A DNA stretch of 64,000 bases from Sinorhizobium glycinis (GTDB lineage: Bacteria; Pseudomonadota; Alphaproteobacteria; Rhizobiales; Rhizobiaceae). The position numbers and the translations under genes are program-made. The notes below the pieces were generated by a model that was given only the letters and a program-made list of their open reading frames with translations, did no database searches and was not told the DNA's origin. The stretch is taken from assembly GCF_001651865.1 (NCBI RefSeq), contig NZ_LPUX01000064.1, forward strand, positions 434,001 through 498,000, in the 5' to 3' direction. Of this stretch, positions 42,838 to 59,795 are shown one piece after another; positions within the stretch are counted from its first letter, which is position 1, and each line of letters opens with the position of its first letter.

Positions 42838-43728
42838 TCAGTAGATCCTCGTGAGTTCGCGGGTCAGGGGACCGGTCGTGCCGGCGCCGATCGTGTGGCC
42901 GTCGATCCGGGTGACCGGCGTCACGCCGCCGAGCGTTCCCGTGAGGAAAGCCTCGTCTGCGGAATAGGCCTGGGCCAGTGTGAAATCGAGCTGGCGCGCA
43001 GGCCCGAGATGGCGTGAGAAAAGGTCAAGAACACGCCCCCTCGTGATGCCGTTGAAGCTGTATTTTCCCGTCGAAGTCCATAGCTCGCCCTTGCGGACAA
43101 TGAAGAAGTTCGTCGAGTTGCAACTTGCCACGAAGCCGAGCGGATCGAGCATCAGCGCCTCGTCGGCACCTGCCGCGATCGCCTGGATCAATGCCTGGAT
43201 CAGATTGAGCCGACTGTGGGAGTTGAGGCGAAGATCGAATACATCAGGCGTACTGCAGCGATAGGAAGAGGTGAAGAGCGTCAAGCCCTTGTCCGACGCA
43301 TTGAACCTGGGCGCCTTCAGTTTGGCAACGATCACCATCGTCGGCCCGCCGATCGTGAAACGGGGATCCTGGTTGGGTGTCGCCTTGCGGCCCCGCGTGA
43401 CCATCAGGCGAACATGCGCACCATCGGCGAAACCGTTTCTGGCGCAGGTCTCCATGATCGCCGCCACCACTTCCCCGCGCGTCATGCCGAGATCCAGGCT
43501 GATGACCCTGGCTCCCTCGAAGAGCCGGTCCATGTGGAGATCCACAGACAGTAGCGAACCATTGACGAGGCGCAATCCCTCCCAGACCCCGTCGCCTAGC
43601 ACGAAGCCGCTGTCGAATACCGATACCGACGCCTCGTCGCGGTGAACGAAGGCACCATTGAGATAGACCAGCACATCTTCGTTCCTGGCGTCGCCGCTAT
43701 AGCCCTGCGCGCTCTGATAATTCTGCAT
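42838..43728 (-). CDS. Class IV aminotransferase (D-amino acid / branched-chain type)
   Basis: A 296-residue fold-type IV PLP-protein. Recognisable parts are VYLNGAFVHRDEASVSVFDS, GFVLGDGVWEGLR, a middle NSHSRLNLIQALIQAIAAGA, CNSTNFFIVRKGELW and the PLP-phosphate loop ITRGRVLDL. In relatives that I recall, the segment is LNSHSKLN with the Schiff-base lysine; here the codon is CGG (Arg). If that alignment is right, ordinary transamination is unlikely. ATG 43728 is used; a longer start at 43773 is possible. It is divergent from a GntR gene. Confidence 0.82.
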   Translation of the reverse strand: MQNYQSAQGYSGDARNEDVLVYLNGAFVHRDEASVSVFDSGFVLGDGVWEGLRLVNGSLLSVDLHMDRLFEGARVISLDLGMTRGEVVAAIMETCARNGFADGAHVRLMVTRGRKATPNQDPRFTIGGPTMVIVAKLKAPRFNASDKGLTLFTSSYRCSTPDVFDLRLNSHSRLNLIQALIQAIAAGADEALMLDPLGFVASCNSTNFFIVRKGELWTSTGKYSFNGITRGRVLDLFSRHLGPARQLDFTLAQAYSADEAFLTGTLGGVTPVTRIDGHTIGAGTTGPLTRELTRIY

Positions 43729-43777
43729 TACCCCATGGCCCTCTTGTCGTCCTTCCTCCGAACGCTTTCGCATGCTA

Positions 43778-44690: not shown

Positions 44691-47600
44691 ATGATTCCAC
44701 GCCTTACCTCCACCGCCGCGATCGCGCTGCCGGAGCCGGACCTGTTCGGCGCCTTGATCGAGGGCGGCTTTTCCGGTGACGTCGACGGGCGCGCCGGCGG
44801 GCGCATCGTGTCGGCGACCGACAATTCGATCTACCAGGTCACGCCGATGGGGATCCTGTTTCCCAGGAATGCGGAGGACCTCTGCATCATCGCCCGGGTC
44901 CTGAGCCAGCCCCGCTTTCGGCGGATCGTGATCGCCCCGCGCGGGGGCGGCACCGGCACCAACGGCCAGGCATTGACCCCGGGTGTGGTCGTCGATTGCT
45001 CCCGCCACATGAACCGCATCCTCGAGATCGACCCGGTCCGCCGCGTGGCGCGCGTGGAGGCCGGCGTCGTGAAGGACCAGCTCAACCGGGCGCTAGAGGA
45101 GCACGGCTTGTTCTTCGCGCCGGAACTTTCGACATCCAATCGTGCCACGATCGGCGGCATGATCTCCACCGACGCCTGCGGCCAGGGTTCCTGCCTCTAC
45201 GGCAAGACCAGCAACCATGTCCTGGGATTGCGGGTGGTACTGATGGACGGCACCGATATCTGGTCTCGCCCGATGGACGACGCTGCCCTGGACGAAGCCT
45301 GCCGGCGCAGCGACCGCCTTGGCGAGGTCTATCGCACCGTGGAGCAGATAACCCGCGAGAAGCGTGAAGAGATCGCGAAGGTCTTTCCCGATCTCAACCG
45401 GTACATGACCGGATACGACCTCGCCCATGTGCGGCGCGGCGATGGCAGTTTCGATCTGAACGCCGTCCTCTGCGGTTCCGAAGGCACGTTGGCGATGATC
45501 GCCGAGGCGGAGCTGAATCTCCTGCCGATCCCTAAGCGCTCCGCGCTGTTCAATATCCGCTACGACGACTTCAACACCGCACTCGAAGACGCACGCACGC
45601 TCACCGCATTGGGTGTCGCCTCGGTCGAAACGGTCGACGAGAAGGTGTTGCGGCTCGCCAGGGGCGACATCGTCTGGGCCGGCATATCGCGCTTCTTTCC
45701 CGACGATGCGGGCAGTCCCGCCAACGGTATCAACATCGTCGAGGTGCTCGCCGACGATGCGAACGAACTGGACCGAAAGATTGCAGCCGTGACGCGCGCG
45801 CTCGACCATGGAGACATGCGGCACAAGGGTTACACGGTCGCGCGGGAGAATGCCGAGGTGGAGGCGATCTGGTCGATGCGCAAGCGCGCGGTAGGCCTGC
45901 TGGGCAATGTCGACGGGCCGGTGAGGCCGCTTGCCTTTGTCGAAGACACCGCCGTGCCGCCGGAAAATCTCGCACCCTATATCCGCGAGTTCCGCGCGCT
46001 TCTCGATGCCGAGGGTCTCTCCTATGGGATGTTCGGCCATGTCGATGCCGGCGTCCTGCATGTCCGTCCGGCCCTCGACCTCACCCGGGCCGAGCATCAG
46101 GCGATGATCCGCCGCGTCAGCGATGCCGTGGTCAAGCTCACCCGCAAATATTGCGGCGTGCTGTGGGGCGAACATGGCAAGGGCGTGCGTTCCGAATATG
46201 TGCCCGAATTCTTCGGCCCGCTCTATCCGGACCTGCAGGCCATCAAGGCCGCCTTCGACCCGGAAAACCGGCTCAATCCCGGCAAGATCGCCACACCGGA
46301 CGGCACGCCGCTCCTCAAGATCGACGAAGTGCCGTTGCGGGGGGCGTTCGACCGGACGATCGGCGACGACATCCGCAACGCGTTCGACAATGCAGCCTAT
46401 TGCAACGGCAACGGCGCCTGCTTCGACTTCGACGCCACAAGCCCGATGTGTCCTTCCTACAAGGCCACGCGCGACCGGCGCTACTCCCCCAAGGGGCGCG
46501 CGTCGCTGATGCGCGAATGGCTGCGCCTCCTGTCGGCGGCAAGGATCGACCCGCGCAACGAGGCTGCTCGCCAGACGACCGCCAGGAGCATTCTCACCCT
46601 GCCGCTCCGCGCCTGGAACACGCTCAATCCGGCCAATCGGGACGATTTCTCCCACGAGGTGCGGGCGGCCATGGACACATGCCTCGCCTGCAAGGCCTGC
46701 GCCGGCCAGTGTCCGGTGAAAGTCAGCGTACCCGCGTTTCGTTCGAAGTTTCTGGAGCTTTACCATGGCCGTTATCTTCGGCCGTTCAAGGATCCTGTCG
46801 TGGCCACGATCGAGACCATGCTGCCCCTGATGGCGAAGGTCAGGCCATTTTACAATTTTGCTGTCGGCTCGGCGGCCGGGCGATATCTGCTGCACCGGCT
46901 CGGCCTGACCGCGCTGCCGGCGATGCCAGCGCTCTCGCTCGAGCGGGAAGCAAAGGCGCTCGGCGTCGAGGTCGCGACGGTGGAACGCATCGCGGCTCTT
47001 CCGGCCGAGGCGCGGGCGAGAGCGGTCGTCCTTGTCCCCGACGCCTTCACCGCCCGTTTCGATCCGGGCGTCGCCGTTTCAGCACTGAATCTCGCCTGCA
47101 AGCTCGGCCTGACACCCTATCTCGCCGCTCGGCATGACAACGGCAAGGCACTGCATGTTCATGGCTACCTCCGGGCGTTCCGCAGGACGGCGTCCAGGAC
47201 GGCGGCATATCTCGACCAGCTATCAGGTCTTGGGGTGACGCTCGTCGGTCTCGATCCGTCGATGACACTGACCTTTCGCAGCGAATATGCCGCCTGGCAA
47301 TGCACACGGACCAAGGCCCGGGTCCTGCTGCCGCAGGAATGGTTGCGGCAGTATCTTTCCCGGATTGATGCTGCGAAACCGGCCGACCGAAAGCGCCTTC
47401 TCTTACTCCCGCACTGTACAGAGCGCACCAATGCCGCGGCCAGCCTCGCGGATTGGCGCGCAGTGTTTGATGCCGCGGGCACGGATCTCGAGATCGCCGA
47501 GACCGGCTGTTGCGGCATGGCTGGCACATTCGGACACGAAGTTCGAAACCGCGACATGTCTGAAAGGCTTTACGCCATGAGCTGGAAGCGACATGTCGAC

Positions 47601-47732
47601 CGGACAGGCGGGGACCAGGTAGTGATGGCGACCGGCTATTCCTGCCGGTCTCAGGCCAAGGAAATCGACGGCAAGGCGCTGGTTCATCCGATCTCCGTTC
47701 TTGAGTCCATCCTCGACAGGACAGAGGATTGA
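44691..47732 (+). CDS. FAD-binding and 4Fe-4S 2-hydroxyacid dehydrogenase (D-2-hydroxyglutarate dehydrogenase, YdiJ-like)
   Basis: A 1013-residue fusion. The FAD-binding type 4 domain (about 50-230) has APRGGGTGTNGQ (82-93) and FAPELSTSNRATIGG. The FAD-oxidase C-terminal domain includes GMFGHVDAGVLHVRP and GEHGKG. A cysteine-rich ferredoxin-like part has a first set near 570 (CNGNGACFDFDATSPMCPSY) and CLACKACAGQCP near 663. A CCG-type end is TGCCGMAGTFGHE near 940. YdiJ-type proteins oxidise D-2-hydroxyglutarate or D-lactate and feed electrons to quinone. Context with amino-acid catabolism fits removal of D-2-hydroxy acids. GntR gene downstream. Confidence 0.92.
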   Translation: MIPRLTSTAAIALPEPDLFGALIEGGFSGDVDGRAGGRIVSATDNSIYQVTPMGILFPRNAEDLCIIARVLSQPRFRRIVIAPRGGGTGTNGQALTPGVVVDCSRHMNRILEIDPVRRVARVEAGVVKDQLNRALEEHGLFFAPELSTSNRATIGGMISTDACGQGSCLYGKTSNHVLGLRVVLMDGTDIWSRPMDDAALDEACRRSDRLGEVYRTVEQITREKREEIAKVFPDLNRYMTGYDLAHVRRGDGSFDLNAVLCGSEGTLAMIAEAELNLLPIPKRSALFNIRYDDFNTALEDARTLTALGVASVETVDEKVLRLARGDIVWAGISRFFPDDAGSPANGINIVEVLADDANELDRKIAAVTRALDHGDMRHKGYTVARENAEVEAIWSMRKRAVGLLGNVDGPVRPLAFVEDTAVPPENLAPYIREFRALLDAEGLSYGMFGHVDAGVLHVRPALDLTRAEHQAMIRRVSDAVVKLTRKYCGVLWGEHGKGVRSEYVPEFFGPLYPDLQAIKAAFDPENRLNPGKIATPDGTPLLKIDEVPLRGAFDRTIGDDIRNAFDNAAYCNGNGACFDFDATSPMCPSYKATRDRRYSPKGRASLMREWLRLLSAARIDPRNEAARQTTARSILTLPLRAWNTLNPANRDDFSHEVRAAMDTCLACKACAGQCPVKVSVPAFRSKFLELYHGRYLRPFKDPVVATIETMLPLMAKVRPFYNFAVGSAAGRYLLHRLGLTALPAMPALSLEREAKALGVEVATVERIAALPAEARARAVVLVPDAFTARFDPGVAVSALNLACKLGLTPYLAARHDNGKALHVHGYLRAFRRTASRTAAYLDQLSGLGVTLVGLDPSMTLTFRSEYAAWQCTRTKARVLLPQEWLRQYLSRIDAAKPADRKRLLLLPHCTERTNAAASLADWRAVFDAAGTDLEIAETGCCGMAGTFGHEVRNRDMSERLYAMSWKRHVDRTGGDQVVMATGYSCRSQAKEIDGKALVHPISVLESILDRTED

Positions 47733-47758: not shown

Positions 47759-47771
47759 CTTATCTGATAAG
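47759..47771. promoter_or_regulatory. 13-bp palindrome before the GntR gene
   Basis: CTTATCTGATAAG is a perfect inverted repeat around a central T, 29 bp upstream of ATG 47801. It is probably the autoregulatory operator of this GntR protein. Confidence 0.5.
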
Positions 47772-47800
47772 TGACACAGGGAACCTCTGCAGGAAGCGCC

Positions 47801-48526
47801 ATGACCATCATCGCCCCACGCGGCAATCTTGCTCAGATCGTTGTCGGCACTCTGACCGAACGGCTGGATTGCGGCGTCTACCCGCCTGGGGAAAAGATGC
47901 CGTCGAGCGCCGAGTTGTGCGAGGAGTTCGGCGTTTCCCGCACGGTCATGCGGGAAGCTCTCGCCTCATTGAAGATCGCGGGGCGCGTCGTGGCGCGGCA
48001 GGGATCCGGCGTCTTCGTACTGGAGCGGGACAGTCGCGCCATTCATTTCGATGCCGGCCGGATCGAGGACATCCGGTCGGCGATGGATATCCTGGAACTG
48101 CGGCTTGGCGTCGAAATGCAGTCGGTTGCCCTCGCGGCTGCGCGGCGTACGCCGGAAGCGCTTACGGAAATTGCCCGCACGTATGATGCGATGACCGTCC
48201 TCGAATCCGACGAGGTCGAATCAGAGGCCAAGGCCGACTTCGCATTTCACATGGCAATCGCGAAGGCAACGCGCAATCCGCATTTCCCGCGCTTGCTCGA
48301 GGCACTCATGGGGGAAATAAACTCCGAGCTGCTGATGAAGCTCAGGCAGTCCGGCGGGTCGCGTTCGAATTTCGTGAACAAGATCAAGCGCGAGCATGCG
48401 ATGATTCTGTCAGCCATAACCCAGCGCGATGAAAAGGGTGCGCAAAGTGCCCTCTACGACCATCTCGCCACCAGTCTTAACCGGTACCGAACCTTGCTAG
48501 ACGAGGCCAACCGCGAACCGGCCTGA
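47801..48526 (+). CDS. GntR-family regulator, FCD subclass
   Basis: A 241-residue repressor. The winged helix is YPPGEKMPSSAELCEEFGVS and RTVMREALASLKIAGRVVAR; the FCD domain runs from about 90 (DAGRIEDIRSAMDILELRLG, FAFHMAIAKATRNPHF). AGGAAGCGCC precedes ATG 47801, which is chosen over GTG-type upstream starts. It lies 68 bp after the FAD/Fe-S dehydrogenase gene, with its own palindrome in between. Probable target: the adjacent catabolic genes. Confidence 0.9.
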   Translation: MTIIAPRGNLAQIVVGTLTERLDCGVYPPGEKMPSSAELCEEFGVSRTVMREALASLKIAGRVVARQGSGVFVLERDSRAIHFDAGRIEDIRSAMDILELRLGVEMQSVALAAARRTPEALTEIARTYDAMTVLESDEVESEAKADFAFHMAIAKATRNPHFPRLLEALMGEINSELLMKLRQSGGSRSNFVNKIKREHAMILSAITQRDEKGAQSALYDHLATSLNRYRTLLDEANREPA

Positions 48527-48767: not shown

Positions 48768-49228
48768 TCAGTCCCTGATGGGATTGCCGCGCATATAGGA
48801 CGCGTACGGAGCCTGTACCAGCCAACCTGCATCCACCGGCAGCATCACGCCTGTGATCGATGCCGCTTTTTGTGAACACAGGAACCAGGCCGCCTCTGCG
48901 ATATGCTCCGGTTCGACGAAAGCGCGCAGGGCCGTGGTCGCCTTGATCTCCTCGGGATTGCGCAGGCCCTGGGCGATCTTGTCCCTGAGGCCATCCGACA
49001 TCGTATATCCCGGCGCGATCCCGTTGACTCGCACCCCGTGGGGGCCGAGCTCGGCGGCAAGCATCTGCGTCAGGGAAAGAACGGCCGCCTTGCCCGCCGT
49101 GTAGGCCGGCAATGACAGTGGCGCAAAGCTTGCGAGCGAACCGATGTTGAGGATGGCTCCCCGACCTGCCGCCTTCAGTGCGCGGCCAAAAACCTGGCAG
49201 GCGATGAGCGTGCCATTGTAGTTCGTCT
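48768..49228 (-). pseudogene. SDR oxidoreductase, N-terminally truncated
   Basis: The minus strand gives about 150 residues of a classical SDR: NYNGTLIACQVFGRALKAAG, ILNIGSLASFAPLSLPAYTA, GKAAVLSLTQMLAAELGPHG and an intact C-terminus SITGVMLPVDAGWLVQAPYA. The catalytic Ser, Tyr and Lys are present. The first third with TGxxxGIG and NNAG is missing, because sequence upstream of about 49228 is unrelated. An internal ATG (49112) exists, but the product could not bind NAD(P). Confidence 0.75.
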
Positions 49229-49566: not shown

Positions 49567-50520
49567 TCAGGACCGCGATGTGGACGGCCCGGTCCTTGTG
49601 GTAGACGTCCAGTCTTCCCTGCTGATCCAGTCACAGAATGCGGAGATTATCTTCACGCGCTTATGAGAGCGCGGCACGACAAGATAGAACCCCGGGACAT
49701 CCTTCTCGCTCATCGATTTCAATGCGTCGATGCCGAAAGGCGCCACGAGGCTGCCATCCCTGATATCGGCCATGGCGTCCAATACCGAGACGAGCCCGAC
49801 GCCGATGCCGGAGATGGCGCCGCGGCGCATGGTGGCGGCGTCGTGGAATTCGATTTCGCTTGCGATCTCCGGCGCTTCCAGCCCCAGATGCTGGAGGACC
49901 TTGTACCAGAGGTCGCGCGCCATGACGGGATGCAGCAATGTCAGCCGGGTAAGATCGGCGGGAGAGCTGATCTGCTTTGCGAGATCCGGCGAGCAGCAGA
50001 TTATCTTGGGATCGCGCATCACGAGCTTGACGTCGTAGTCTTTCCAGTTGCCGAAGCCCCACTGTATGGAAACGTCCACCTCGTCCGCGGCAAAATCCCG
50101 AACGCTGATCATGGTGGTGATGCGGATATCCGCCCCCGGCATCAGTTGACGGAACTTCTCCAGCCGTTCCATGAGGTAGCGGGTGGCGAAGTAGGGGCTG
50201 ACATTGATGTTGATGCGATTGCGATAGGTGGAATTCGTGACCCGCCGGATTCCCTCGGTGAATTCGTCGAAGCCCGCCTCGATGAAATGCGAGAGGACTA
50301 TCGCCTGTTCCGTCGGCTCGATCACCCGCGCCTTGCGCTCGAACAGCGGCACGTGGAGGATGTCCTCGAGCAACTTGATCTGCTGGCTCACGGCCTGAGG
50401 CGTGACAAGCAACTCGTCCGCTGCGCTTCGGAAGCTACCCTGGCGCATGACTGCCCAAAACGCTCGAAGTGCGTTCAACGGCGGAAGCCGGGTGTGCTGT
50501 CCGGACAAGCTGCTCTCCAA
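49567..50520 (-). CDS. LysR-family regulator (GcvA-like)
   Basis: A 317-residue LysR-type protein. The N-terminal HTH has LPPLNALRAFWAVMRQGSFR and SAADELLVTPQAVSQQIKLL, followed by the effector domain (ININVSPYFATRYLMERLEK). The opening 'LPPLNALRAF' is typical of GcvA-like regulators. It lies 50 bp after the frameshifted FAD oxidase gene on the same strand, so it is the last gene of, or just behind, the hyu catabolic operon and probably controls it. The C-terminus is Ser/Thr-rich. Confidence 0.9.
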   Translation of the reverse strand: MESSLSGQHTRLPPLNALRAFWAVMRQGSFRSAADELLVTPQAVSQQIKLLEDILHVPLFERKARVIEPTEQAIVLSHFIEAGFDEFTEGIRRVTNSTYRNRININVSPYFATRYLMERLEKFRQLMPGADIRITTMISVRDFAADEVDVSIQWGFGNWKDYDVKLVMRDPKIICCSPDLAKQISSPADLTRLTLLHPVMARDLWYKVLQHLGLEAPEIASEIEFHDAATMRRGAISGIGVGLVSVLDAMADIRDGSLVAPFGIDALKSMSEKDVPGFYLVVPRSHKRVKIISAFCDWISREDWTSTTRTGPSTSRS

Positions 50521-50570: not shown

Positions 50571-51775
50571 TTATATCACAGCCTTCTCGATGAAAGGACG
50601 GTTCTCGACGATCCGCTCATAACCCACTTCCCTGAGATCGAGCGACCGATACTCGTCGTAGATGATCAGTTCGGAGACGCCGCGTCCGGCGGCCGGCCCC
50701 TGCTGGAGCCCGTGGCCGGAAAATCCGTTGGCAAAGACGAAATTCCTCACTTCGGGATGACGCCCGACGACCAGGTTGTGGTCGAGCCTGTTGAAGTCGT
50801 AGTGACCGGCCCATTGATTGATCACCTTGACGGCCTCGAAACTAGCCGACCGTTCTGCGAGTGTCGGCCAGATGATATCCTCGAACTCTTCGTAACGGGG
50901 CTCGAAATCGTCCCAGTCGACCGCCGGATCCTCGACCGGAGCGCAACCGGTCAGGAAGAAGCGGCCCTCCGGGCGGCAGAAAACGCCCGTCGGGTCGATC
51001 ATCAGCGGCAATCGGCCGTGATTGACGTTCGCCGTGCCTTCGGGAGACTTCGCGCAGTCGATGACGAACAGGGTGCGCTTCCGCGGTTCGACCGGAACGT
51101 CGAGACCGGCCATGCGGCGGTGAGCGCCGCACGCGGTCCCGAGCAGTTGACGATCGTGCCCGCCCTGACCTTCTGTCCCGACTTCAGCGTCACCGAGTTC
51201 ACCCTGTCACCCGCGCGACCGATGCCGACGACTTCGTCGGTGACATATTCCACACCGAGCGACCGCGCCTTGTTCTTGAAACCGTACATCAGGCCGGTGT
51301 TGTTGAACCAGCCTTCGCCTGAGCGTCCGTAGGATGCAAGCTCGATGTCGCCGACATTGAGGTGCGGGAAGGCGTCGGCAAGTTCGGCACGGCTCCAAAG
51401 CACGACATCGGCGCCACAGGAAATCTGCGCGTCATGGTTTTCCTTGAGGATCTGCGCCTGTTCCTGTGTGTTGGCCAGGAACAGATAGCCGCCGGAATGA
51501 AAGGCAAGATCAGGCTTGTCGTCGCCGACCTGCATCAGATCGCCGAAATTGCGGATGACGTCGGACCCGTATTGGCTGATCTTCACGTTGATCGGATTGG
51601 AGAACTGTGTCCGGATCGAGGAGGACGACAGGGACGTCGACGCCTTCAGATAGGTCGGATCCCTCTCGACCACCAGGACCGAGCCAGTGAAGTCCGGGTT
51701 GGCGCTGAGATAGTAGGCAACGGCGGAGCCGATTACGGCGCCGCCGACGATTATCACGTCATAGCTTTCTTTCAT
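50571..51775 (-). pseudogene. FAD-dependent oxidoreductase (DAO family), frameshifted
   Basis: A D-amino-acid/sarcosine oxidase-like flavoprotein split into two frames. The first part starts MKESYDVIIVGGAVIGSAVA (ATG 51775) and runs to NCSGPRAALTAA. The second continues MAGLDVPVEPRKRTLFVIDC and ends FIEKAVI. The frames join at about 51113-51117, where one base appears to be missing; adding one gives 402 codons and an uninterrupted family-like sequence. Its start overlaps the uronate-dehydrogenase-like gene (ATGA). Either a recent mutation or a sequencing error; if real, the enzyme is lost. Confidence 0.85.
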
Positions 51776-52590
51776 TTCGATGCCTCGTCGTCGGGATGGC
51801 CGATATCGACGAACCACCCACCCAGGTAAAACGCAGCTGGAGCCTTCGGGTCGAGCGGGGGCTTCTGCGCTTCGACCGCGGCGCGGAAACGCTCGGTATT
51901 GTCCTGCGGCAGGTAGCCGAGATGACCCGCCTTCGAATTGTCGACGGGCTTCAGGCTGTTGTCGGACATTCCGAAGCTGATCGTATGGCCGACGCGCGGC
52001 GCGGTCAGGCTCGCGGTCACCAGGCGAACACAATCGTCGAAGGAAAGCCAGGACCACAGCATGCGGCGGTCCGCTGGCTCGGGGAACGAGGAGAAGATGC
52101 GCAGGCACACGCTCTCGAGCCCGAACTTGTCCCAGTAGAACCGGCTCAGCGACTCGACGAAGCACTTCGAGACGCCATAGAGGCTGTCCGGCCGAACCGG
52201 CGCGTCCGTATCGATATGCGCCTCGAGCGTATGGTAGCCGATCGCATGGACCGATGACGCATAGACGACGCGTCTCGCGCCGTTCTTCCGCGCTCCCTCG
52301 TAGATATTGTACGAACCGCGAATATTGGAGTCGAGGATCGTTTCCCAGGCGGTTTCGAGCGGCGCGCCACCGAAATGAACGATCGCATCGACGCCTTGCG
52401 TGGCCTTCAACACGGCATCGGCGTCGGCGAGGTCGAACACCATGGCCTCTTCGTTCGGCTGCAGGTCCCGGACTTCGGTTCGATCGGCGAGGCGCAATCT
52501 GTTCGCCAGGGGAGCGAGGCCCCGGCGAAGTTCGGTTCCAAGACGCCCGGCGGCGCCGGTGATCAGAAGGGTATCGTAAGGTTTTGTCAT
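51772..52590 (-). CDS. NAD-dependent epimerase/dehydrogenase, uronate dehydrogenase-like
   Basis: A 272-residue extended SDR. It has LLITGAAGRLGTELRRGLAP, a charged position after beta-2 (LADRTE), ASSVHAIGYHTL and the catalytic LYGVSKCFVESLSRFYWDKF. The pattern matches bacterial uronate dehydrogenases (Udh), which oxidise glucuronate or galacturonate to aldarolactone. Here the neighbours are lactam/hydantoin-type genes, so another cyclic or hydroxy substrate is possible. It overlaps the FAD oxidase gene by 4 bp and follows the aminotransferase by 13 bp. Confidence 0.87.
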   Translation of the reverse strand: MTKPYDTLLITGAAGRLGTELRRGLAPLANRLRLADRTEVRDLQPNEEAMVFDLADADAVLKATQGVDAIVHFGGAPLETAWETILDSNIRGSYNIYEGARKNGARRVVYASSVHAIGYHTLEAHIDTDAPVRPDSLYGVSKCFVESLSRFYWDKFGLESVCLRIFSSFPEPADRRMLWSWLSFDDCVRLVTASLTAPRVGHTISFGMSDNSLKPVDNSKAGHLGYLPQDNTERFRAAVEAQKPPLDPKAPAAFYLGGWFVDIGHPDDEASK

Positions 52591-52603
52591 TCTTGAGTTC
52601 CCA

Positions 52604-53809
52604 TCAGGGCCTGAGTTCTGCGACGGCGACCCCTATGCGCTTCACCGCCTCGGCCAGCGCGTCTTCGGACGTGGCGGTCGATATGCGGAAGAACGGGGAA
52701 AGACCGTAGGCAGTGCCGGGAACAGCGGCTACATGACCGACCTCAAGAAGATACTTCGCCACAGCCACGTCATCCTCGAGGGTCTGACCTGAAGGCGTTT
52801 TCGCACCGATAAGCGCAGCACAGCCGATATAGGCGTAAAACGCGCCCTCCGGCGGATCGAGTGTCAGCGCGTCGATCCTGGCGATGCCCTCGACGACGAG
52901 ATTGCGCCGGCGCTCGAAAGCGGCGCAGAATTTCGACACATCCTCCTGAGGTCCCTCCAGCGCCGCGCGCGCGGCGATCTGTGCCGGCGCGGATACGGAC
53001 GTGCAGGATTGGCTCTGGATGGTTCCCATCGCCTTGATGAGGTCCTTCGGGCCCGCCGCATAGCCGACGCGCCAGCCGGTCATCGCATAGGCCTTCGACA
53101 TGCCGTTGACGATCAGCGTCCGGTCGCGCAGGTCCGGGCAGGCGGTGCCGAAGGACACAAACTTGCGGCCATCGAATATGATGTGCTCGTAGATCTCGTC
53201 GGAGAGGATCATGACGCCGGGATGCTTCGCGAGCACCGCGCCCAGTGCCTTGAGCTGCGCTTCGCTGTAGACCGCACCGGAGGGATTGCCAGGCATGTTC
53301 AGGAACAGCCAGCGGGTCTTTTCGGTGATTGCGTTTTCCAGAACTTCCGGCGTGAGCCTGAAACCCGCTGCCGCGGGGCAGGCCGGGGTCACGGGAACAC
53401 CGTCGAAGAGCTTCACCATTTCCGGATAGGAGACGAAGTAGGGCGCGGGAAGAATGACTTCGTCACCCGCCTCGACAGTCGCCATCAGGGCGTTGAAGAT
53501 GATCTGCTTGGCGCCGTTCGCCACGGCGATCTCATCGATTGCGTAGTCGAGTCCGTTTTCGCGCTTGAACTTGCCGGCAATGGACTTCCTGAGGTCCGGA
53601 GTCCCGAGGGATGCCGTGTAGAGCATTCGCTCGCAGCGCGCGGCCTCGAATGCCGCTTCGGTTATATGCGCGGGAGCCGGAAAGTCCGGCTCTCCGAGGC
53701 CGAGGTCGATGACATCGACACCTGTTGCCGCCAGATCCTTGGCAGCCTGCGACACGGCCATGGATGCCGATGGCTTGACCGCCGAAAGCCGGCTTGCGAT
53801 ATGGCTCAT
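52604..53809 (-). CDS. Class I/II PLP aminotransferase (aspartate/aromatic type)
   Basis: A 401-residue fold-type I aminotransferase. GEPDFPAPAHITEAAFEAAR, NMPGNPSGAVYSEAQLKALG, LSDEIYEHIIFDG and the PLP lysine in VNGMSKAYAMTGWRVGYAAG form a complete active-site set, with the carboxylate-binding FFRISTATS at the end. It converts an amino acid to its 2-oxo acid using an unknown acceptor. ATG 53809 overlaps the HyuB stop by one base (TGATG), so it is tightly coupled to the hydantoinase-type genes. Confidence 0.93.
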   Translation of the reverse strand: MSHIASRLSAVKPSASMAVSQAAKDLAATGVDVIDLGLGEPDFPAPAHITEAAFEAARCERMLYTASLGTPDLRKSIAGKFKRENGLDYAIDEIAVANGAKQIIFNALMATVEAGDEVILPAPYFVSYPEMVKLFDGVPVTPACPAAAGFRLTPEVLENAITEKTRWLFLNMPGNPSGAVYSEAQLKALGAVLAKHPGVMILSDEIYEHIIFDGRKFVSFGTACPDLRDRTLIVNGMSKAYAMTGWRVGYAAGPKDLIKAMGTIQSQSCTSVSAPAQIAARAALEGPQEDVSKFCAAFERRRNLVVEGIARIDALTLDPPEGAFYAYIGCAALIGAKTPSGQTLEDDVAVAKYLLEVGHVAAVPGTAYGLSPFFRISTATSEDALAEAVKRIGVAVAELRP

Positions 53810-55425
53810 CACTTCTTCTCCGTCATGTATCCCTTGGACAGATCCTCGGCCCTGGCTTCGGCCGAACGCTCGGCAGGATTGCCGAAGCCGCCGCCGCCCG
53901 GCAGTTCCAGCACCAGGCGGCGACCGCTCGGTACATGTTGCCAGCCCTTGGGCCTGAGCTTCGTGCCGTCGTCCAGCCTGGCTGAACCCGGCGCGCCGTT
54001 CTCTCCGCCGTTCCGGCCACGCGCCGGCGTCGAAATGCGATCGAACATTGCCGAGAAGTCGAACTCGTGGCCATCGGCGGGGGCGATTTCGATGATCTGC
54101 CCGAGACCGCCGCGATACTTGCCCGCGCCGCCGGAATCGGGCCTGAGTTCCTTGCGCCAGACAACGATCGGGCCGGTCTGCTCGGTTGCCTCGATCGGCA
54201 TGGTGTGAACGCCGGAGGGAAAGGCCGTGGACGACAGCCCGTCGAGGCCGGGACGCGCACCCATGCCGCCGGAGTTGAACATCAGCACCTCGGCACGCCG
54301 GCCCGTCTGTCCGGCGACGGGGCGCGCGGAAATGTGAATGTTCCACAATGCGGCCGCCCCTTCGGCGAGAATCTGCCCGGGAAGCGCCTGGGCAAGCGCG
54401 CCCAGGACAAGGTCGGGCACCATATGGCCGATGACGTGTCTCACGGAAACCGGAGCCGGACGCTCCGCGTTCAGGATATTGGTCGGCGAAGAGACGTTGA
54501 ATGCAGCCAACGATGCGGCATTGTTGGGAATGTCAGGCGCGACGACACATTTCAGCGCATAGGACGCATAGGCCTTGGTGTAGATCAGCGGGACATTGAT
54601 GCCCCAGCGGCTCATTGGGGCGGTGCCGGAGAAATCGACATTGATGCCGGTGTCCGTGATGGTGACTTTCGCGGCGAGCCTGATCTGCTCGTCATAGCCG
54701 TCGGTCAGCATCTCGTTCGACCAGGCACCCTTGGGCAGGCCTGCGATGCGTTCCGCCGTCGCGGCGCGGGTGCGCGACAGGATGAAGTCGCCGAGCGTGT
54801 CGAGATTGTCGTAGCCGACTTCTTCGAGCATCTCGAGCAGCCGCTTGTGACCGACGTCGTTGCAGGCGGCGAGCGAGAAGAAGTCGCCGATCACCTGGTT
54901 GGGTTCGCGTACGTTGAGGCGCAGGACCTTCAGGAGATCCTTGTTGACGACGCCGCGTTCGGCAAACTTCATGATCGGGATCTGAATCCCCTCTTCATAG
55001 ACCGACTTGCCGTCTGCGCCGAAGCCGCGGCCGCCGACATCGACAACGTGCGCCGTGCAGGCGAAGAAGCCGATCAGTTCGTCACCCCTGAACGACGGCG
55101 AGACCATCGTGATGTCGTGCAGGTGACCCGTGCCCTTCCAGGGATCGTTGGTCACATAAGTGTCGCCCGGATACATTTCTTCGCGAGGAATCTCGTTGAT
55201 GAAATGCAGTACGGCCTCGGCCATCGTGTTGACGTGACCGGGCGTTCCGGTCACGGCCTGCGCGAGCATTTCTCCCGTGGCATTGTAGACCCCCGCCGAC
55301 AGGTCGCCTGCTTCACGCACCGAGGTCGAGAATGCTGTCCGCAGGAGGGTCAGCGCCTGTTCCTCGACAACCGAGATCAGGCGGTTCCACATGACCTGCA
55401 TACGGATTTCATTGATGTCGCTCAT
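53809..55425 (-). CDS. HyuB-type subunit (hydantoinase B/oxoprolinase family)
   Basis: A 538-residue protein of the HyuB family, partner of the adjacent HyuA. Recognisable parts are MQVMWNRLISVVEEQALTLL, GTPGHVNTMAEAVLHFINEI, GDTYVTNDPWKGTGHLHDIT and GGMGARPGLDGLSSTAFPSG. Together HyuAB enzymes hydrolyse ATP to open cyclic amides (hydantoins, 5-oxoproline, caprolactam) or carboxylate ketones. Start is 3 bp after the HyuA stop. The real substrate is not readable from sequence. Confidence 0.93.
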   Translation of the reverse strand: MSDINEIRMQVMWNRLISVVEEQALTLLRTAFSTSVREAGDLSAGVYNATGEMLAQAVTGTPGHVNTMAEAVLHFINEIPREEMYPGDTYVTNDPWKGTGHLHDITMVSPSFRGDELIGFFACTAHVVDVGGRGFGADGKSVYEEGIQIPIMKFAERGVVNKDLLKVLRLNVREPNQVIGDFFSLAACNDVGHKRLLEMLEEVGYDNLDTLGDFILSRTRAATAERIAGLPKGAWSNEMLTDGYDEQIRLAAKVTITDTGINVDFSGTAPMSRWGINVPLIYTKAYASYALKCVVAPDIPNNAASLAAFNVSSPTNILNAERPAPVSVRHVIGHMVPDLVLGALAQALPGQILAEGAAALWNIHISARPVAGQTGRRAEVLMFNSGGMGARPGLDGLSSTAFPSGVHTMPIEATEQTGPIVVWRKELRPDSGGAGKYRGGLGQIIEIAPADGHEFDFSAMFDRISTPARGRNGGENGAPGSARLDDGTKLRPKGWQHVPSGRRLVLELPGGGGFGNPAERSAEARAEDLSKGYMTEKK

Positions 55426-55428
55426 GGA

Positions 55429-57501
55429 TCAGCGCCCTTTCCGGACAAGTAGGATTGTGCCGTCCGCCTGGATGACGGCGTCAAAGGGCGACGTGACGAC
55501 GGTCGAGGTTTCCCGCTCGGCGATCACGGCAGGACCGGCAACGCGGGCGCCCGGCTGCAGCGTGTGGCGCGGCACGATGGCGGTCTTCATTTCGGCGCCG
55601 AAAGCCGGATCGAACACGGTGCGCGTCGAGGGAACGTCCCCTGGAGATCCTTCCGTTTCCAGCGAGAAGGTCTCGCCTTCGGGCCGGACATCCTGCGCCT
55701 TTACCGACCAGGTGACGAACTGGATTTCCGGGCCTTCGACGGCGCGGCCGAAAAACTGCGCGTAGCGGGTCTTGAACGCTTCCTCGATCATCCCGCGGTC
55801 CGCGGTCGTGAACTCACGATCCGGCAGCGGGACCGGGATTTCCCAGCCCTGGCCCGCATAGCGCATGAAGGCGGTCACTTCGCGAAGGATCTCGCCGTCC
55901 GTACCGGCGCGGACAAAGCCTTCTGCCGTAGTCTTGAGGTCGTCGAGCATGGTGTTGATCGCGCAGACGTCGAATTCCGACAGCCCGATGATCTTGGTGG
56001 CGAGTGCCTCGTAGCCGAAGGGCGCTTTCAGGAAGCCGATGGCCGACCCGACCCCAGCTCCCTGCGGGATCAGGCACTGGTCCACGTTGAGCTTCTCGCA
56101 CAGGCGCGCCGCATGCAGCGGCGCGGCACCGCCAAAGGCGATCATGATGTTGTCGGAAATGTTCTTGCCATTTTCGACCGCATGCACGCGGGCGGCATTG
56201 GCCATGTTCTCGTCGACCACCTCGACGATGCCGAAGGCGGCAGCCTGCGGGGCGAGCCTGAGCTTCTCGCCCACGTCCCGCCCGATCGCCGCGACGGCGT
56301 TTTCCACGGAAAGCTTGATCTTGCCGCCGGCGAAATTGTCGGGGTCGAGCTTGCCGAGCACGAGATCCGCATCCGTGATGGCCGGACGCGTTCCCCCGCG
56401 CTGGTAGCAGGCGGGGCCCGGCTCGGAAGCCGCCGACTCCGGTCCCGCCTGGATGCGGCCCATGGCATCCACCCAGGCGATGGAACCGCCGCCGGCGCCG
56501 ATTTCGATCATCTCGATCACCGGAATGGAGATCGGCATGCCCGAGCCCTTGCAGAAGCGATAGGTGCGCGCCACCTCGAAGGTGCGCGCCGTGTGCGGCT
56601 GATAGTCCTCGATCAGGCAGATCTTGGCGGTCGTGCCGCCCATGTCATAGGACACGACGCGGTCGAGGCCGAAACGCCGCGCGATATCGGCTGCGAAGAT
56701 CGCGCCGCCTGCCGGCCCGGATTCGACGAGACGCACCGGGAACTCCGAAGCCGTCTCGACGGATATGAGGCCGCCGCCCGAATGAATCATGAAGACGGGG
56801 CATCCGGCACCCATCTCCTTCAACCTGACCTGCAGGCGCGAAAGGTAATCGGCCATCTGGGGGCGTACATAGGCGTTGGCGCAGACCGTGTTGAAGCGCT
56901 CGAATTCCCGCATCTGCGGGGAAACCTCAGACGAGATCGAGATCGGGATGGAGAGCTTCCGCGACAGGATTTCGCGAGCGCGCTCCTCATGTGCCGGGTT
57001 CATGTAGGAATGGATGAAGCCGATCGCCACCGCGCCGAAACCGCGTTCGGCGATGACATCCGCCAGGGCTTCCAGCGCCGCTTCGTCAAGTGGCTGAAGC
57101 TCCCTGCCCTGCGCGTCGATGCGGCCCTTGACCGGGAAGCGATCCTCGCGCGGGATGAGTAGCGTCGGCAGCACGAGACTCAGGTCGTACTGCTCGAAGC
57201 GGTTCTCCGTGCGCATCTCGATGACGTCGCGGAAGCCTTCGGTGGTGACGAGCGCCGTCCTCGCGCCACGGCGCTCGATCAGGGCGTTGGTTGCCAGCGT
57301 CGTTCCGTGGATGACGATGGCGATGTCCTTCGGCGCTATGCCCGCATCCCTGCAGACAATCTCGATACCATCGAGGATTGCCTGTTCCGGAGCGGAATAG
57401 TTCGTCAGCACCTTGGTCGAGAACAAGGTCCCCCTCACGTCGAGCGCGATGTCGGTGAAGGTGCCGCCGATATCGGCCCCAAGGCGAATGTCTTGTGTCA
57501 T
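55429..57501 (-). CDS. HyuA-type subunit (hydantoinase/oxoprolinase ATPase)
   Basis: A 690-residue ATP-binding HyuA subunit. The N-terminal phosphate loop is GADIGGTFTDIALDVRG, then IHGTTLATNALIERRGARTA and SYDMGGTTAKICLIEDY (acetate-kinase/actin-like ATPase fold). The middle reads GPACYQRGGTRPAITDADLV and the C-terminal segment GAAPLHAARLCEKLNVDQCL. It overlaps the ThDP-enzyme gene by 4 bp and is followed by HyuB. The pair forms an ATP-dependent ring-opening enzyme. Confidence 0.94.
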   Translation of the reverse strand: MTQDIRLGADIGGTFTDIALDVRGTLFSTKVLTNYSAPEQAILDGIEIVCRDAGIAPKDIAIVIHGTTLATNALIERRGARTALVTTEGFRDVIEMRTENRFEQYDLSLVLPTLLIPREDRFPVKGRIDAQGRELQPLDEAALEALADVIAERGFGAVAIGFIHSYMNPAHEERAREILSRKLSIPISISSEVSPQMREFERFNTVCANAYVRPQMADYLSRLQVRLKEMGAGCPVFMIHSGGGLISVETASEFPVRLVESGPAGGAIFAADIARRFGLDRVVSYDMGGTTAKICLIEDYQPHTARTFEVARTYRFCKGSGMPISIPVIEMIEIGAGGGSIAWVDAMGRIQAGPESAASEPGPACYQRGGTRPAITDADLVLGKLDPDNFAGGKIKLSVENAVAAIGRDVGEKLRLAPQAAAFGIVEVVDENMANAARVHAVENGKNISDNIMIAFGGAAPLHAARLCEKLNVDQCLIPQGAGVGSAIGFLKAPFGYEALATKIIGLSEFDVCAINTMLDDLKTTAEGFVRAGTDGEILREVTAFMRYAGQGWEIPVPLPDREFTTADRGMIEEAFKTRYAQFFGRAVEGPEIQFVTWSVKAQDVRPEGETFSLETEGSPGDVPSTRTVFDPAFGAEMKTAIVPRHTLQPGARVAGPAVIAERETSTVVTSPFDAVIQADGTILLVRKGR

Positions 57502-59174
57502 GCTGTTTCCTTTGCAGAAAGCGCGGCCTCTCGCATCTGGCTCAGCGTCTGGCGTGGGGTGAGAGCCTCGGGCGAGATGTCCAGATCGAGCAGTGCCCCT
57601 GTCCTGGAAGCGCGAGCGCGCTCGAAAGCGGCGGGGAAATCGGCCGTTGAGCCAACCCGCTCCGCGTGAAAGCCGTATGACTTTGCAAGAGCCACAAAAT
57701 CCGGGTTGATCATCGTCGTGCCGGAGACGCGTGCGGGATAGTGACGCTCCTGGTGCGCGCGGATCGTCCCGTAGATGCCGTTGTTGAGCAGCAGGATGAT
57801 CGGCTGCGCATCGTGCTGGAGCGCGGTTGCCAGTTCCTGGCAGTTCATCTGGAAGTCGCCGTCGCCGGCAAAACAGACCACGGTGCGCTCGGGATGGGCG
57901 ACCTTGGCGGCCACCGCGGCCGGAACGCCATAGCCCATCGCGCCCGATTGCGGGGCGAGAAGGCGCGCCTTGGGGCCGAACCTGAAGAACTTGTTCGGCC
58001 AGACCGTGAAGTTGCCAGCGCCATTGGTGAGGATCACGTCATCCGGCAAAATGTCGTTCAGGAGGGCCGTGACCTTGCCCATATCGACCGGCGAAGGCAG
58101 GTCGGGGAGATCGAAACCCTTTTCATAGGCAAGCCGTCCCTCGGCGCGCCATTCCGCCCATCCGCCCTTGACCGGTTCGAGAGCGCCCAGCGCTTCTGCG
58201 AAGGCGTTCGGGCCTGCATGAATGCCGAGCGCCGGTCGATAGACCTTGCCGATCTCCAGGTCCGAACCGTGGACATGAACGATCTGCTGGCGAGGCTGGG
58301 GCACCTGGAACAGAGTGTAGCCGTCCGTGGAATTCTCCCCGAAGCGGTTGTTGATCGCGAGGACGACATCGGCGGCGCGCAGCAGTTCCTTGACCGAGGC
58401 AACCATGCCGACGCCGGCCTCGCCACAGTAGGTCGACGAGGCGTTGTCGTACTGGTCCTGGTAACGGAAGACGGAGACGACAGGAATGTCGGAGGCCTCG
58501 GCAAAGCGCTGGACCGCAGCCATGGAGCCCTCGGACCAGTTGCATCCGCCGTACATGATGACCGGCCGCGTGGCGCCGGCCAGCATCTCCCGCAGGCGTT
58601 GCATGGCCGAAGCAGACGGCGCGGGCTCGGAGAGTTCGATTGGACCGGCAAGAGGCTCGGCCCCGGTGAGACACGTCAGCATGTCCTCGGGCAGCGCGAT
58701 CACGACGGGGCCGGGACGGCCCGAAACGGCCATGGTCCAGGCGCGTGACATGATTTCCGGAATTCGATCGACGTCGTCGATCTCGACGGCCCATTTGGCC
58801 ATGGTGCCGAAAACCGCCTTGTAATCCACTTCCTGAAAGGCTTCGCGCCCTTTCATGTCGGTGCCGACCTGGCCGACGAAGAGCAGCATCGGCGCAGAAT
58901 CCTGCATGGCCGTATGGACGCCGATGGAGGCATTGGTGGCTCCCGGGCCGCGCGTGACGAAGCAGATCCCGGGCAGGCCGGTCAGCTTGCCGTAGGCGGC
59001 GGCCATGAATGCCGCTCCGCCCTCGTTGCGGCAAAGGATGTAGTCGAGACGACCAGCGGTGTCGTGCAGCGCGTCGAGCACCGCCAGATAGCTTTCGCCG
59101 GGCACGCCAAAACTCTTCGTCGCACCAAGCGCCAAGAGGCATTCGACGAGAAGCTGCCCTCCATTACGTTGCAT
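57498..59174 (-). CDS. Thiamine diphosphate-binding enzyme (acetolactate synthase/decarboxylase-like)
   Basis: A 558-residue ThDP-dependent enzyme of the pyruvate-oxidase/acetolactate-synthase fold. The catalytic Glu is E51 in RNEGGAAFMAAAYGKLTG, the middle domain starts near 190, and the ThDP/Mg motif is FAGDGDFQMNCQELATALQH with LLLNNGIYG. Unlike acetolactate synthases it has no companion small subunit nearby. It probably decarboxylates or ligates a 2-oxo acid made by the aminotransferase or FAD oxidase. AGGAACACAACG precedes ATG 59174, and the HyuA start overlaps its 3' end. Confidence 0.9.
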   Translation of the reverse strand: MQRNGGQLLVECLLALGATKSFGVPGESYLAVLDALHDTAGRLDYILCRNEGGAAFMAAAYGKLTGLPGICFVTRGPGATNASIGVHTAMQDSAPMLLFVGQVGTDMKGREAFQEVDYKAVFGTMAKWAVEIDDVDRIPEIMSRAWTMAVSGRPGPVVIALPEDMLTCLTGAEPLAGPIELSEPAPSASAMQRLREMLAGATRPVIMYGGCNWSEGSMAAVQRFAEASDIPVVSVFRYQDQYDNASSTYCGEAGVGMVASVKELLRAADVVLAINNRFGENSTDGYTLFQVPQPRQQIVHVHGSDLEIGKVYRPALGIHAGPNAFAEALGALEPVKGGWAEWRAEGRLAYEKGFDLPDLPSPVDMGKVTALLNDILPDDVILTNGAGNFTVWPNKFFRFGPKARLLAPQSGAMGYGVPAAVAAKVAHPERTVVCFAGDGDFQMNCQELATALQHDAQPIILLLNNGIYGTIRAHQERHYPARVSGTTMINPDFVALAKSYGFHAERVGSTADFPAAFERARASRTGALLDLDISPEALTPRQTLSQMREAALSAKETA

Positions 59175-59207
59175 CGTTGTGTTCCTGTCTATCGCGAGTT
59201 CGAATGG

Positions 59208-59795
59208 TCACGGTTTGGGCACGGGCTGGAATCCCGATCCCGACAAAAGTGAAAGCGCTTCTTCGCCCAACTGCTGGGACGTGTGATTTTCAAAGGCAAG
59301 GTAGTGAACCGAGACACCGGTGTTCGAAATCTCGCTCCGGAGCGCGTGCGCAAGGCCATTGACGGCCGATGCGACGGTTCTCTCAATCAGGCTTGCCGCT
59401 CCGGATTCCTCAGGCGAAACCATGAGAAGCGCGCCTTGCCGACGCGCAATCATCGAAGGCAAAACGGCCCGCGTCAGGTGGATCGTCGCGGAAAGGTTAA
59501 CCTCCAGGGCCATGTCGATGTCCGCTTCCGAAAGATTGAGGAAGCGCGCTTTGTCGGGCCATCGAAGCGCGGAGTGAACAAGCACATCCGGTTCCATGCC
59601 TTCAACGACGAAGCGCACATAGTCGCGGTCGGTCAAATCCATCGCCATCGGAACGATGCCATGATTGGCACGCATTTCCTCAAGCACGACTCGATCACGC
59701 CCGAGAGCATGCACCTCCCATCCCGCGTCAGCGAGCGTGGCCGCGATCACGCGCCCGGGGGCCCGCGTCGCCCCCGTAACAAGTGCTTTGGTCAT
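59208..59795 (-). CDS. SDR-like protein with altered catalytic residues
   Basis: A 195-residue Rossmann-fold protein, first gene of the operon. The N-terminus MTKALVTGATRAPGRVIAAT lacks the central glycine of TGxxxGxG. NNAG is replaced by HSALRW, and the Y-x3-K segment reads LIERTVASAVNGLAHALRSE with no Tyr or Lys at the expected positions. It is also shorter than typical SDRs (about 250). It may therefore bind a ligand or nucleotide without redox activity. GGGAGTTCGTGTG precedes ATG 59795. Confidence 0.75.
   Translation of the reverse strand: MTKALVTGATRAPGRVIAATLADAGWEVHALGRDRVVLEEMRANHGIVPMAMDLTDRDYVRFVVEGMEPDVLVHSALRWPDKARFLNLSEADIDMALEVNLSATIHLTRAVLPSMIARRQGALLMVSPEESGAASLIERTVASAVNGLAHALRSEISNTGVSVHYLAFENHTSQQLGEEALSLLSGSGFQPVPKP

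Follow-up and report, generated by a model that had tools for sequence, protein, structure and literature searches.

Related catabolic systems

The closest described counterparts of the operon studied here come from lactam, cyclic amine, opine, uronate and pipecolate catabolism. This operon lies in Sinorhizobium glycinis (assembly GCF_001651865.1, contig NZ_LPUX01000064.1, positions 434,001 to 498,000 of the forward strand; this whole stretch of 64,000 nucleotides is the window, and all positions below are counted within it). It encodes a HyuAB-type lactamase together with a thiamine diphosphate (ThDP)-dependent enzyme, an aminotransferase, a uronate dehydrogenase (UDH) homologue and a flavin adenine dinucleotide (FAD) oxidase. 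Our tentative proposal is that this module degrades a carboxylated, ring-shaped secondary amino acid, most likely a hydroxylated pipecolate.

In the caprolactam pathway of Pseudomonas jessenii, an ATP-dependent HyuAB-type lactamase (CapAB) likewise precedes an aminotransferase (PMC6061476), and CapAB has the same phosphate motifs and metal tetrad as HyuAB of the window (PMC8453981). However, its lactam carries no carboxylate and its aminotransferase acts on 6-aminohexanoate (PMC6061476), and the accessible text of these reports mentions no UDH homologue, ThDP enzyme or D-2-hydroxyacid dehydrogenase (PMC6061476, PMC8453981). The azepane route proposed for Gulosibacter molinativorax leads from a cyclic amine over a hydroxy-amine to a lactam by means of a dehydrogenase, with HyuAB as one candidate opener; it differs in starting with a hydroxylation, in having another dehydrogenase candidate and in its validated opener (on caprolactam), which is a caprolactone-hydrolase-like enzyme (PMC9477822). 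Hydantoinase A/B proteins encoded beside transporter genes in the opine regions of Ti plasmids have been proposed to open succinamopine lactams and rideopine lactam, while neither a UDH homologue nor a ThDP enzyme is mentioned in the accessible text (PMC6733357, PMC8554961). The HyuB of pTiS4 (NC_011982), found among 60 of 328 records (a set without pTiEU6), is 29.4% identical to that of the window.

In the oxidative uronate pathway, uronate dehydrogenase is followed by a lactone step, KdgD and 2-oxoglutarate semialdehyde dehydrogenase. Our module shares with it the UDH family, the same proposed end product and, in relatives, KdgD and a related aldehyde dehydrogenase (ALDH), whereas in our proposal it has a ring nitrogen and HyuAB in place of the lactone steps and, in the type found in the window, a ThDP enzyme and D-2-hydroxyglutarate. 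The Pseudomonas lysine and hydroxylysine route opens its imine as a semialdehyde that is oxidised without ATP, and is not known to involve HyuAB or a UDH homologue. Lysine and pipecolate catabolism in Pseudomonas does share pipecolate and 2-aminoadipate as intermediates, and hydroxylysine is said to follow the lysine routes (PMC12930750, citing Friede and Henderson 1976).

The operon and its proposed route

The operon is read downward on the minus strand from position 59,795, in the order short-chain dehydrogenase (SDR), ThDP enzyme, HyuA, HyuB, aminotransferase, UDH homologue, FAD oxidase and LysR-type regulator. Gene families were assigned by Pfam and NCBIfam profile matches, and these agree with the close-packed set of families named in the first-pass annotation. 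The ThDP and hyuA genes overlap by 4 bases, as do the UDH and FAD oxidase genes, hyuB and the aminotransferase gene overlap by 1 base, and the remaining spacings between the enzyme genes are 3, 13 and 33 bases.

From the families, motifs, gene associations and alternative lower halves, all of which are taken from the sequence, we infer every reaction, the order of reactions and the substrate. The FAD oxidase would oxidise a C-N bond of the ring to a cyclic imine, which would hydrate to a hemiaminal; the UDH homologue would then oxidise the hemiaminal carbon with NAD, in the way expected for C1 of a uronic acid, to give a lactam acid. ATP-dependent opening of this lactam by HyuAB would give a dicarboxylic amino acid, 2-amino-5-hydroxyadipate, which the aspartate-type aminotransferase would convert to 5-hydroxy-2-oxoadipate, and decarboxylation by the ThDP enzyme would yield 2-hydroxyglutarate semialdehyde. 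An aldehyde dehydrogenase, whose gene some relatives carry close to the operon and this genome carries at another place, would produce 2-hydroxyglutarate, the D form of which would become 2-oxoglutarate through YdiJ or through a GlcD-type enzyme with electron transfer flavoprotein (ETF). The stereochemistry of the hydroxyl group could be determined by a pair of SDRs encoded nearby. The best single guess for the substrate is 5-hydroxypipecolate. It fits a ThDP type that ends in a D-2-hydroxyglutarate dehydrogenase: lacking a hydroxyl at position 4, its product could not enter an aldol or KdgD step and would instead be decarboxylated to 2-hydroxyglutarate semialdehyde.

The first-pass annotation had placed both the aminotransferase and the FAD oxidase after HyuAB, as makers of a 2-oxo acid, and had let the ThDP enzyme decarboxylate or ligate that acid. 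The aminotransferase and a decarboxylating ThDP enzyme are retained in these roles in our scheme, while the FAD oxidase, together with the UDH homologue, more likely acts before HyuAB and makes the lactam.

Reports of hydroxypipecolates in plants cover Calliandra, Julbernardia, Gymnocladus, Lathyrus and Baphia; the text describes the Baphia compound as inhibiting beta-glucosidase, the title cited there as inhibiting glucuronidase (PMC6271146). A search of open-licence full texts for 5-hydroxypipecolic acid in connection with legumes listed no paper containing that name. Several of these hydroxypipecolate-bearing plants are legumes. If the proposed route is right, Mesorhizobium, Sinorhizobium, Paracoccus and Roseobacter kin carry genes for the breakdown of non-protein amino acids of plants, a UDH homologue has a nitrogen-ring substrate, and a widespread HyuAB clade so far named by resemblance alone gains a substrate. 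No open-licence full-text paper that we found describes the gene set (subscription papers lay outside the search). The earlier view that the full set of parts is missing from every known pathway was not contradicted by these papers. The enzyme families are all known, while their combination and the proposed substrate class are, as far as seen there, undescribed.

Features of the encoded enzymes

HyuA (55429..57501, minus strand; Pfam Hydantoinase_A) would be the ATP-binding subunit of the lactamase and HyuB (53809..55425, minus strand; Pfam Hydantoinase_B, 485.5 bits) its metal-binding subunit. HyuA has the phosphate motifs DIGGTFTD and DMGGT (family pattern DxGGTxTD and DMGGT), including D10 and D286, and all 54 relatives compared keep both. 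The sequence at its adenosine motif is ASEPGP; 29 of the 54 relatives match the strict form GxxPGP, and all 54 a relaxed form. In HyuB, D41, H101, D104 and H126 align with the metal tetrad of CapB (Asp, His, Asp, His), and the motifs holding these four ligands are present in 52 of 52 relatives. When the corresponding residues of caprolactamase were mutated, phosphate-site aspartate mutants gave significantly less product and metal-ligand mutants were inactive (PMC8453981). The retention of the phosphate motifs and metal ligands supports the view, already put forward in the first-pass annotation, that HyuAB is an ATP-dependent enzyme that opens a cyclic amide, here a lactam. Although the best NCBIfam model for HyuA is caprolactamase alpha, both subunits stay far under the caprolactamase equivalog cut-offs (456.3 bits for CapA and 168 bits for CapB, cut-off 1000 each), and the substrate of HyuAB therefore probably differs from caprolactam.

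The UDH homologue (51772..52590, minus strand), our proposed hemiaminal dehydrogenase, aligns nearly end to end (residues 7 to 262-269 of 272) with the uronate dehydrogenases 6mfh (E 7.1e-78) and 3rft (E 5.2e-71) in the PDB, and with 3ay3 (E 1.4e-75), which is titled NAD-dependent epimerase/dehydratase. What had been called uronate-dehydrogenase-like is thus a full-length homologue. The catalytic pair of uronate dehydrogenase is Tyr-x-x-x-Lys, and the homologue carries YGVSK where uronate dehydrogenases have YGLSK; its Y138 and K142 are kept in at least 95% of 51 sequences. Two loops are changed relative to the solved enzymes, from GGVSVE to GGAPLE and from ASSNH to ASSVH. Such loops contact the sugar in uronate dehydrogenases, and given these changes the homologue may have a substrate other than uronates.

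The ThDP enzyme (57498..59174, minus strand), a proposed 2-oxo acid decarboxylase, falls into the NCBIfam subfamily PRK08199 (764.7 bits against a cut-off of 539), which names no function and was the only model to be passed among the 25 shown. Its scores for acetolactate synthase (TIGR00118; 338.8 of 538.35) and for guanidino-oxopentanoate decarboxylase (238.7 of 500) were below the cut-offs, and it is 74-90% identical to seven relatives. The class I aminotransferase (52604..53809, minus strand) scores 513.7 bits with PRK06107, under the cut-off of 617, and is closest to aspartate aminotransferase B (PDB 6f35, E 1.9e-130).

The FAD oxidase gene (50571..51775, minus strand), of the DAO or sarcosine oxidase kind, had been taken for one intact gene and is in fact split over two frames near 51,116. 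In an alignment to a relative, residues 1-220 lie in the frame from 51,775 to 51,116 and residues 221-401 in a different frame from 51,116, and each part matches Pfam DAO. The protein is unbroken in all four relatives aligned, and a genome-wide search at E 1e-20 found no second copy. The break may be a real loss or an assembly error. Because the frame is broken and no transporter adjoins the operon, the module may be decaying in this genome. The solved structure nearest to the FAD oxidase is 1y56_B, which is listed as sarcosine oxidase and which we take to be the beta subunit of L-proline dehydrogenase.

For the last step of the route, a YdiJ-type D-2-hydroxyglutarate dehydrogenase is encoded in the window (44691..47732, plus strand; equivalog NF049975, 1462 bits, above the cut-off of 1350), 2.8 kb beyond the FAD oxidase gene. 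A YdiJ gene lies near the operon also in the relatives L034, L035, L037 and L055.

Conservation of the gene set

The gene-set search in other genomes that had been suggested was carried out in two ways. Megablast of the whole operon found the block at 80% coverage or more in 9 plasmid records (Shinella, Paracoccus, Rhizobium), and a scan of GTDB genomes with a ThDP enzyme alignment yielded 491 confirmed relatives, of which the best 80 loci were compared. With seven plasmid loci from the megablast these make up 87 ThDP loci; an 88th scanned locus, L041, has no ThDP gene. All locus counts rest on our own identity thresholds and on flanking stretches of roughly 10-12 kb, or less at contig ends.

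HyuA was present in 53 of the 87 ThDP loci, and every one of these 53 also had HyuB. Most further had the UDH homologue (48), the LysR regulator (47) and the aminotransferase (46), and 28 had the FAD oxidase, which was found together with the aminotransferase in 26. A YdiJ or GlcD-type dehydrogenase lay within the flanks of 31 loci (YdiJ in 4, GlcD type in 27), the two members of the SDR pair, SDRa and SDRb, in 32 and 30, and an Aap- or Liv-type transporter in 27 (23 and 4, respectively); KdgD was found in none of the 53. The picture was very different for the 34 ThDP loci without HyuA, in which FAD oxidase occurred three times, the UDH homologue, the aminotransferase, the YdiJ or GlcD type and ALDH once each, and HyuB, LysR, SDRa, SDRb, Aap, Liv, EtfB, KdgD and the first SDR not at all. 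Among the 46 loci with HyuA that came from the ThDP scan, the counts were 41 for the UDH homologue, 39 for the aminotransferase, 21 for the FAD oxidase, 26 for YdiJ or GlcD and 10 for ALDH. When counted by genus, with labels assigned by hand from listings, some labels of metagenome-assembled genomes lumped and some genera falling in both sets, the UDH homologue occurred in 19/22 genera with HyuA against 1/20 without (p 6.1e-8), YdiJ or GlcD in 12/22 against 1/20 (p 6.4e-4) and the ABC transporter in 9/22 against 0/20 (p 1.5e-3). The grouping of the gene set is not due to chance.

The set recurs mainly in alphaproteobacteria, and the Halomonas locus L055 holds YdiJ, ALDH, both SDRs, the full operon and EtfB within 21.7 kb. 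The ThDP orthologue is patchy, being found in 18 of 297 genomes of the family, including that of the window, and in none of four listed genomes of the same genus. We tentatively regard the operon as a horizontally spread catabolic module. Its first gene (SDR0, 59208..59795, minus strand; Pfam adh_short, 70.6 bits) is variable and does not belong to the core as had been assumed, with matches at 45% identity or more in only 9 of the 53 loci. Highly conserved ThDP orthologues without HyuA nearby were also seen (L049, L051, L067, L070, L073 and others, in Rhodobacterales-type and Aurantimonas genomes).

Separable halves and alternative lower halves

The two halves of the proposed pathway separate among relatives. 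The upper half, consisting of the FAD oxidase, the UDH homologue and HyuAB with neither ThDP enzyme nor aminotransferase, stands alone in L041, L170, L176, L179 and L181. The lower half stands alone in Paraburkholderia diazotrophica (L072:7126-12845) as a row of ALDH, GlcD, ThDP enzyme and aminotransferase, with no match to HyuAB, the UDH homologue or the FAD oxidase at that locus. HyuB contexts were also taken at the level of the order (20 of 51 HyuB matches, eight of the 20 being read gene by gene), and in these 20 the UDH homologue occurred in 10, the FAD oxidase in 6, the aminotransferase in 6, the ThDP enzyme in 4 and KdgD in 2. One of them, L169, combines the full ThDP type with GlcD, EtfA, EtfB and ETF-QO. 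In L171 and L172, HyuAB and the UDH homologue are present, and a DHDPS-family gene nearby remains below every cut-off.

In other relatives KdgD or an HpaI/GarL-type aldolase replaces the ThDP gene. Sinorhizobium meliloti (L122) and Ensifer (L128) carry a row of FadR, RidA, ABC transporter, HyuA, HyuB, aminotransferase, KdgD and ALDH, the part from HyuAB to ALDH spanning L122:6881-14404 and L128:6886-14383 on plasmids. L173 and L174 have FadR, RidA, aminotransferase, HyuB, HyuA and KdgD, with an aldehyde-dehydrogenase-family gene in L173. KdgD passes the equivalog TIGR03249 in L122 (412.6 bits) and L173 (393.1 bits; cut-off 373.95). For the ALDH proteins of L122 and of L037, a locus of the ThDP type, the best model is in each case 2-oxoglutarate semialdehyde dehydrogenase, with scores under the cut-off. 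In L179, HyuA, HyuB and the FAD oxidase are accompanied by an HpaI/GarL-type aldolase (319.2 of 368.8, under cut-off), the UDH homologue and an SDR.

The substrate of KdgD, 5-dehydro-4-deoxyglucarate, is 2-oxo-4,5-dihydroxyadipate, and GarL-type aldolases cleave the same kind of hydroxylated 2-oxo diacid. An aminotransferase ahead of KdgD thus implies 2-amino-4,5-dihydroxyadipate, the lactam form of which is 4,5-dihydroxy-6-oxopipecolate, and the KdgD-type relatives fit 4,5-dihydroxypipecolate as substrate. A broader and more speculative idea would be an 'aza-uronate' pathway, in which hydroxylated pipecolates are handled as nitrogen analogues of uronic acids: the UDH homologue would make a lactam, HyuAB would replace the lactonase, and three exchangeable lower halves (ThDP enzyme with D-2-hydroxyglutarate, KdgD, or aldolase) would be set by the positions of the hydroxyl groups. 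If so, the hydroxylation pattern predicts the lower half, which can be tested enzyme by enzyme.

Weighing the alternatives

Several observations weigh against hydroxypipecolate degradation by the proposed route. The L-pipecolate oxidase model (AmaA, NF050086) gave 20.3 bits of a 600 cut-off with the FAD oxidase of L041 and no match with that of L037, and in L122 and L128, which are of the KdgD type, neither a FAD oxidase nor a UDH homologue was found over 19.6 kb. Whole FAD oxidase genes are missing from the flanks of 20 of the 48 loci with a UDH homologue, 16 of these 20 being from Mesorhizobium; some such loci have lost the gene, because a fragment remains beside the UDH gene in L068 and L092, and they may use another oxidase or another order. 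FAD oxidase occurs without HyuAB near the ThDP gene in L079, L096 and L105. Of the 53 ThDP and HyuA loci, two carry the oxidase but lack the class I aminotransferase, and both genes are absent from another five (L098 and L099 end soon after HyuB), which leaves room for the two enzymes to perform the same deamination; no aminotransferase was seen in L179. ALDH was found in just 14 and EtfB in 3 of the 53 ThDP and HyuA loci, 8 of the 20 order-level HyuB contexts had no match to the UDH homologue, FAD oxidase, aminotransferase, ThDP enzyme or KdgD, and the sets of the by-genus control, overlapping as they do in genera, are not independent. Finally, 24 genomes drawn from the 34 ThDP loci without HyuA (25 submitted) were searched for HyuA elsewhere; none had it above 60% identity and 6 had it at 52-60%. 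Given such stand-alone ThDP genes, the substrate or role of the ThDP enzyme may be broader than this pathway.

This last point touches on the explanation that the ThDP enzyme is a carboligase or general 2-oxo acid enzyme loosely tied to the pathway. Its nearest solved structures are acetolactate synthases and stand-alone orthologues exist, but in the L127 operon an annotated ThDP protein (below the 60% threshold) occupies a different position, as if the step were needed, and in L072 the ThDP gene lies between GlcD and the aminotransferase even without HyuAB. We consider this explanation unlikely. Slightly less likely still is that HyuAB acts first on an imported lactam, with FAD oxidase and aminotransferase as alternative deaminases and the UDH homologue acting later on a sugar-like product. 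Loci with only one of the two deaminases, in either direction, would agree with that order, as would the KdgD loci that lack both the FAD oxidase and the UDH homologue; it sits badly with the five loci in which FAD oxidase and UDH homologue accompany HyuAB without an aminotransferase, and with the 26 loci that have both deaminases.

Hydroxylated pipecolate also competes with a five-membered ring, in which a hydroxyproline-like substrate would pass over 4-hydroxy-5-oxoproline, 4-hydroxyglutamate and malate semialdehyde to D-malate. The enzyme logic would be identical, and the nearest structure of the FAD oxidase, 1y56_B, would suit it if it is indeed a proline dehydrogenase subunit; the KdgD of relatives, on the other hand, requires a 2-oxo acid with six carbons and two hydroxyls. 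D-Malate is accepted by some D-2-hydroxyglutarate dehydrogenases, whereas the YdiJ enzymes of E. coli and P. ananatis were active on D-2-hydroxyglutarate alone among the tested acids, and D-malate, which was among these, was not used (PMC9504171). Because neither tested YdiJ enzyme acts on D-malate, the six-membered ring is favoured and the smaller one appears improbable. The least probable of the alternatives is the catabolism of an opine lactam or N-substituted pyroglutamate, in which HyuAB would open the lactam, the FAD oxidase would split the opine and other enzymes would process the parts. The proposals made for Ti-plasmid hydantoinases and the transporters by the operon in 27 of the 53 loci speak for it, while the distance of the pTiS4 HyuB and hosts that include, by name, Roseobacter kin and Halomonas speak against it, and we know of no opine role for a UDH homologue.

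Further candidates were discarded. Catabolism of auxin or oxindole, which was considered for the lactam ring and a MarR regulator nearby, is not matched by a dioxygenase in the operon, and no open-licence paper combined all five of the features searched for. Against the use of hydantoin or creatinine, none of the matches shown for the operon belongs to a racemase, carbamoylase or creatininase family. Conversion of 5-oxoproline to glutamate alone would make a dedicated aminotransferase, the ThDP enzyme and a D-2-hydroxyacid dehydrogenase needless, and for a carboxylase of the acetone or acetophenone type the best NCBIfam models are caprolactamase instead. The kynureninase gene adjoining the operon in L034 was not seen in six other annotated relatives and was treated as a neighbour.

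Neighbouring genes

A LysR-type regulator (49567..50520, minus strand; Pfam LysR_substrate and HTH_1) is conserved beside the operon, and a FadR/GntR-type regulator (47771..48526, plus strand; NCBIfam LldR, 100.3 bits, under the cut-off of 311) is conserved with YdiJ, the FadR proteins next to YdiJ in L034, L035 and L037 being 64-67% identical to that of the window. The SDR pair consists of SDRa (41957..42706, minus strand), which is 83-87% identical to SDRa of L034, L035, L037 and L047 (83.5% for L047), and SDRb (41221..41964, minus strand). It is adjoined by a class IV aminotransferase (42838..43773, minus strand; Pfam Aminotran_4), a possible accessory with homologues of 50% and 51% identity in L062 and L066, both of which lack the class I aminotransferase. 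On the other side of the pair, at 38065-41116, genes for alanine racemase, D-amino acid dehydrogenase and RidA were observed; RidA also occurs in KdgD-type loci.

The absence of a transporter from the operon, as described earlier, is true here but is not a feature of the system, since an amino-acid ABC transporter lies near the operon in all seven annotated plasmid relatives. In the Shinella locus L034, LysR is followed by a DMT transporter, a Liv-type ABC transporter, FadR, YdiJ and SDRa. The window retains LysR, FadR, YdiJ and the SDR pair, with a C-terminal SDR fragment (48768..49112, minus strand; Pfam adh_short_C2) between LysR and FadR, at the site of the Liv-type transporter in the Shinella relatives; a search of the window with the Liv and DMT proteins of L034 gave no hit at E 1e-3. 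Because only this fragment stands where L034 has its transporters, the missing transporter probably reflects a local loss. Elsewhere in the genome, the best match to the binding protein is only 47% identical, while matches to ALDH (81%), EtfA (83%) and EtfB (90%) were found, with no other genes of the set seen in those stretches.

Upstream of the operon, a MarR-like regulator gene (60027-60617) is divergent from a second, fused HyuA-HyuB gene (60656-64000), which continues past the end of the window and accounts for one of the genome's three Hydantoinase_B matches. The contig, of 849 kb, is possibly a megaplasmid or chromid, given a repABC-like set recognised by eye at 3683-7399. The region 19155-25232 contains a sugar-isomerase/HPPD-type fusion and a shikimate-dehydrogenase-like gene, with TRAP-type transporter genes identified by eye, which suggests quinate or shikimate use. 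At 30482-34030 we observed a tripartite tricarboxylate transporter receptor (TctC), with TctA and TctB adjoining it by eye.

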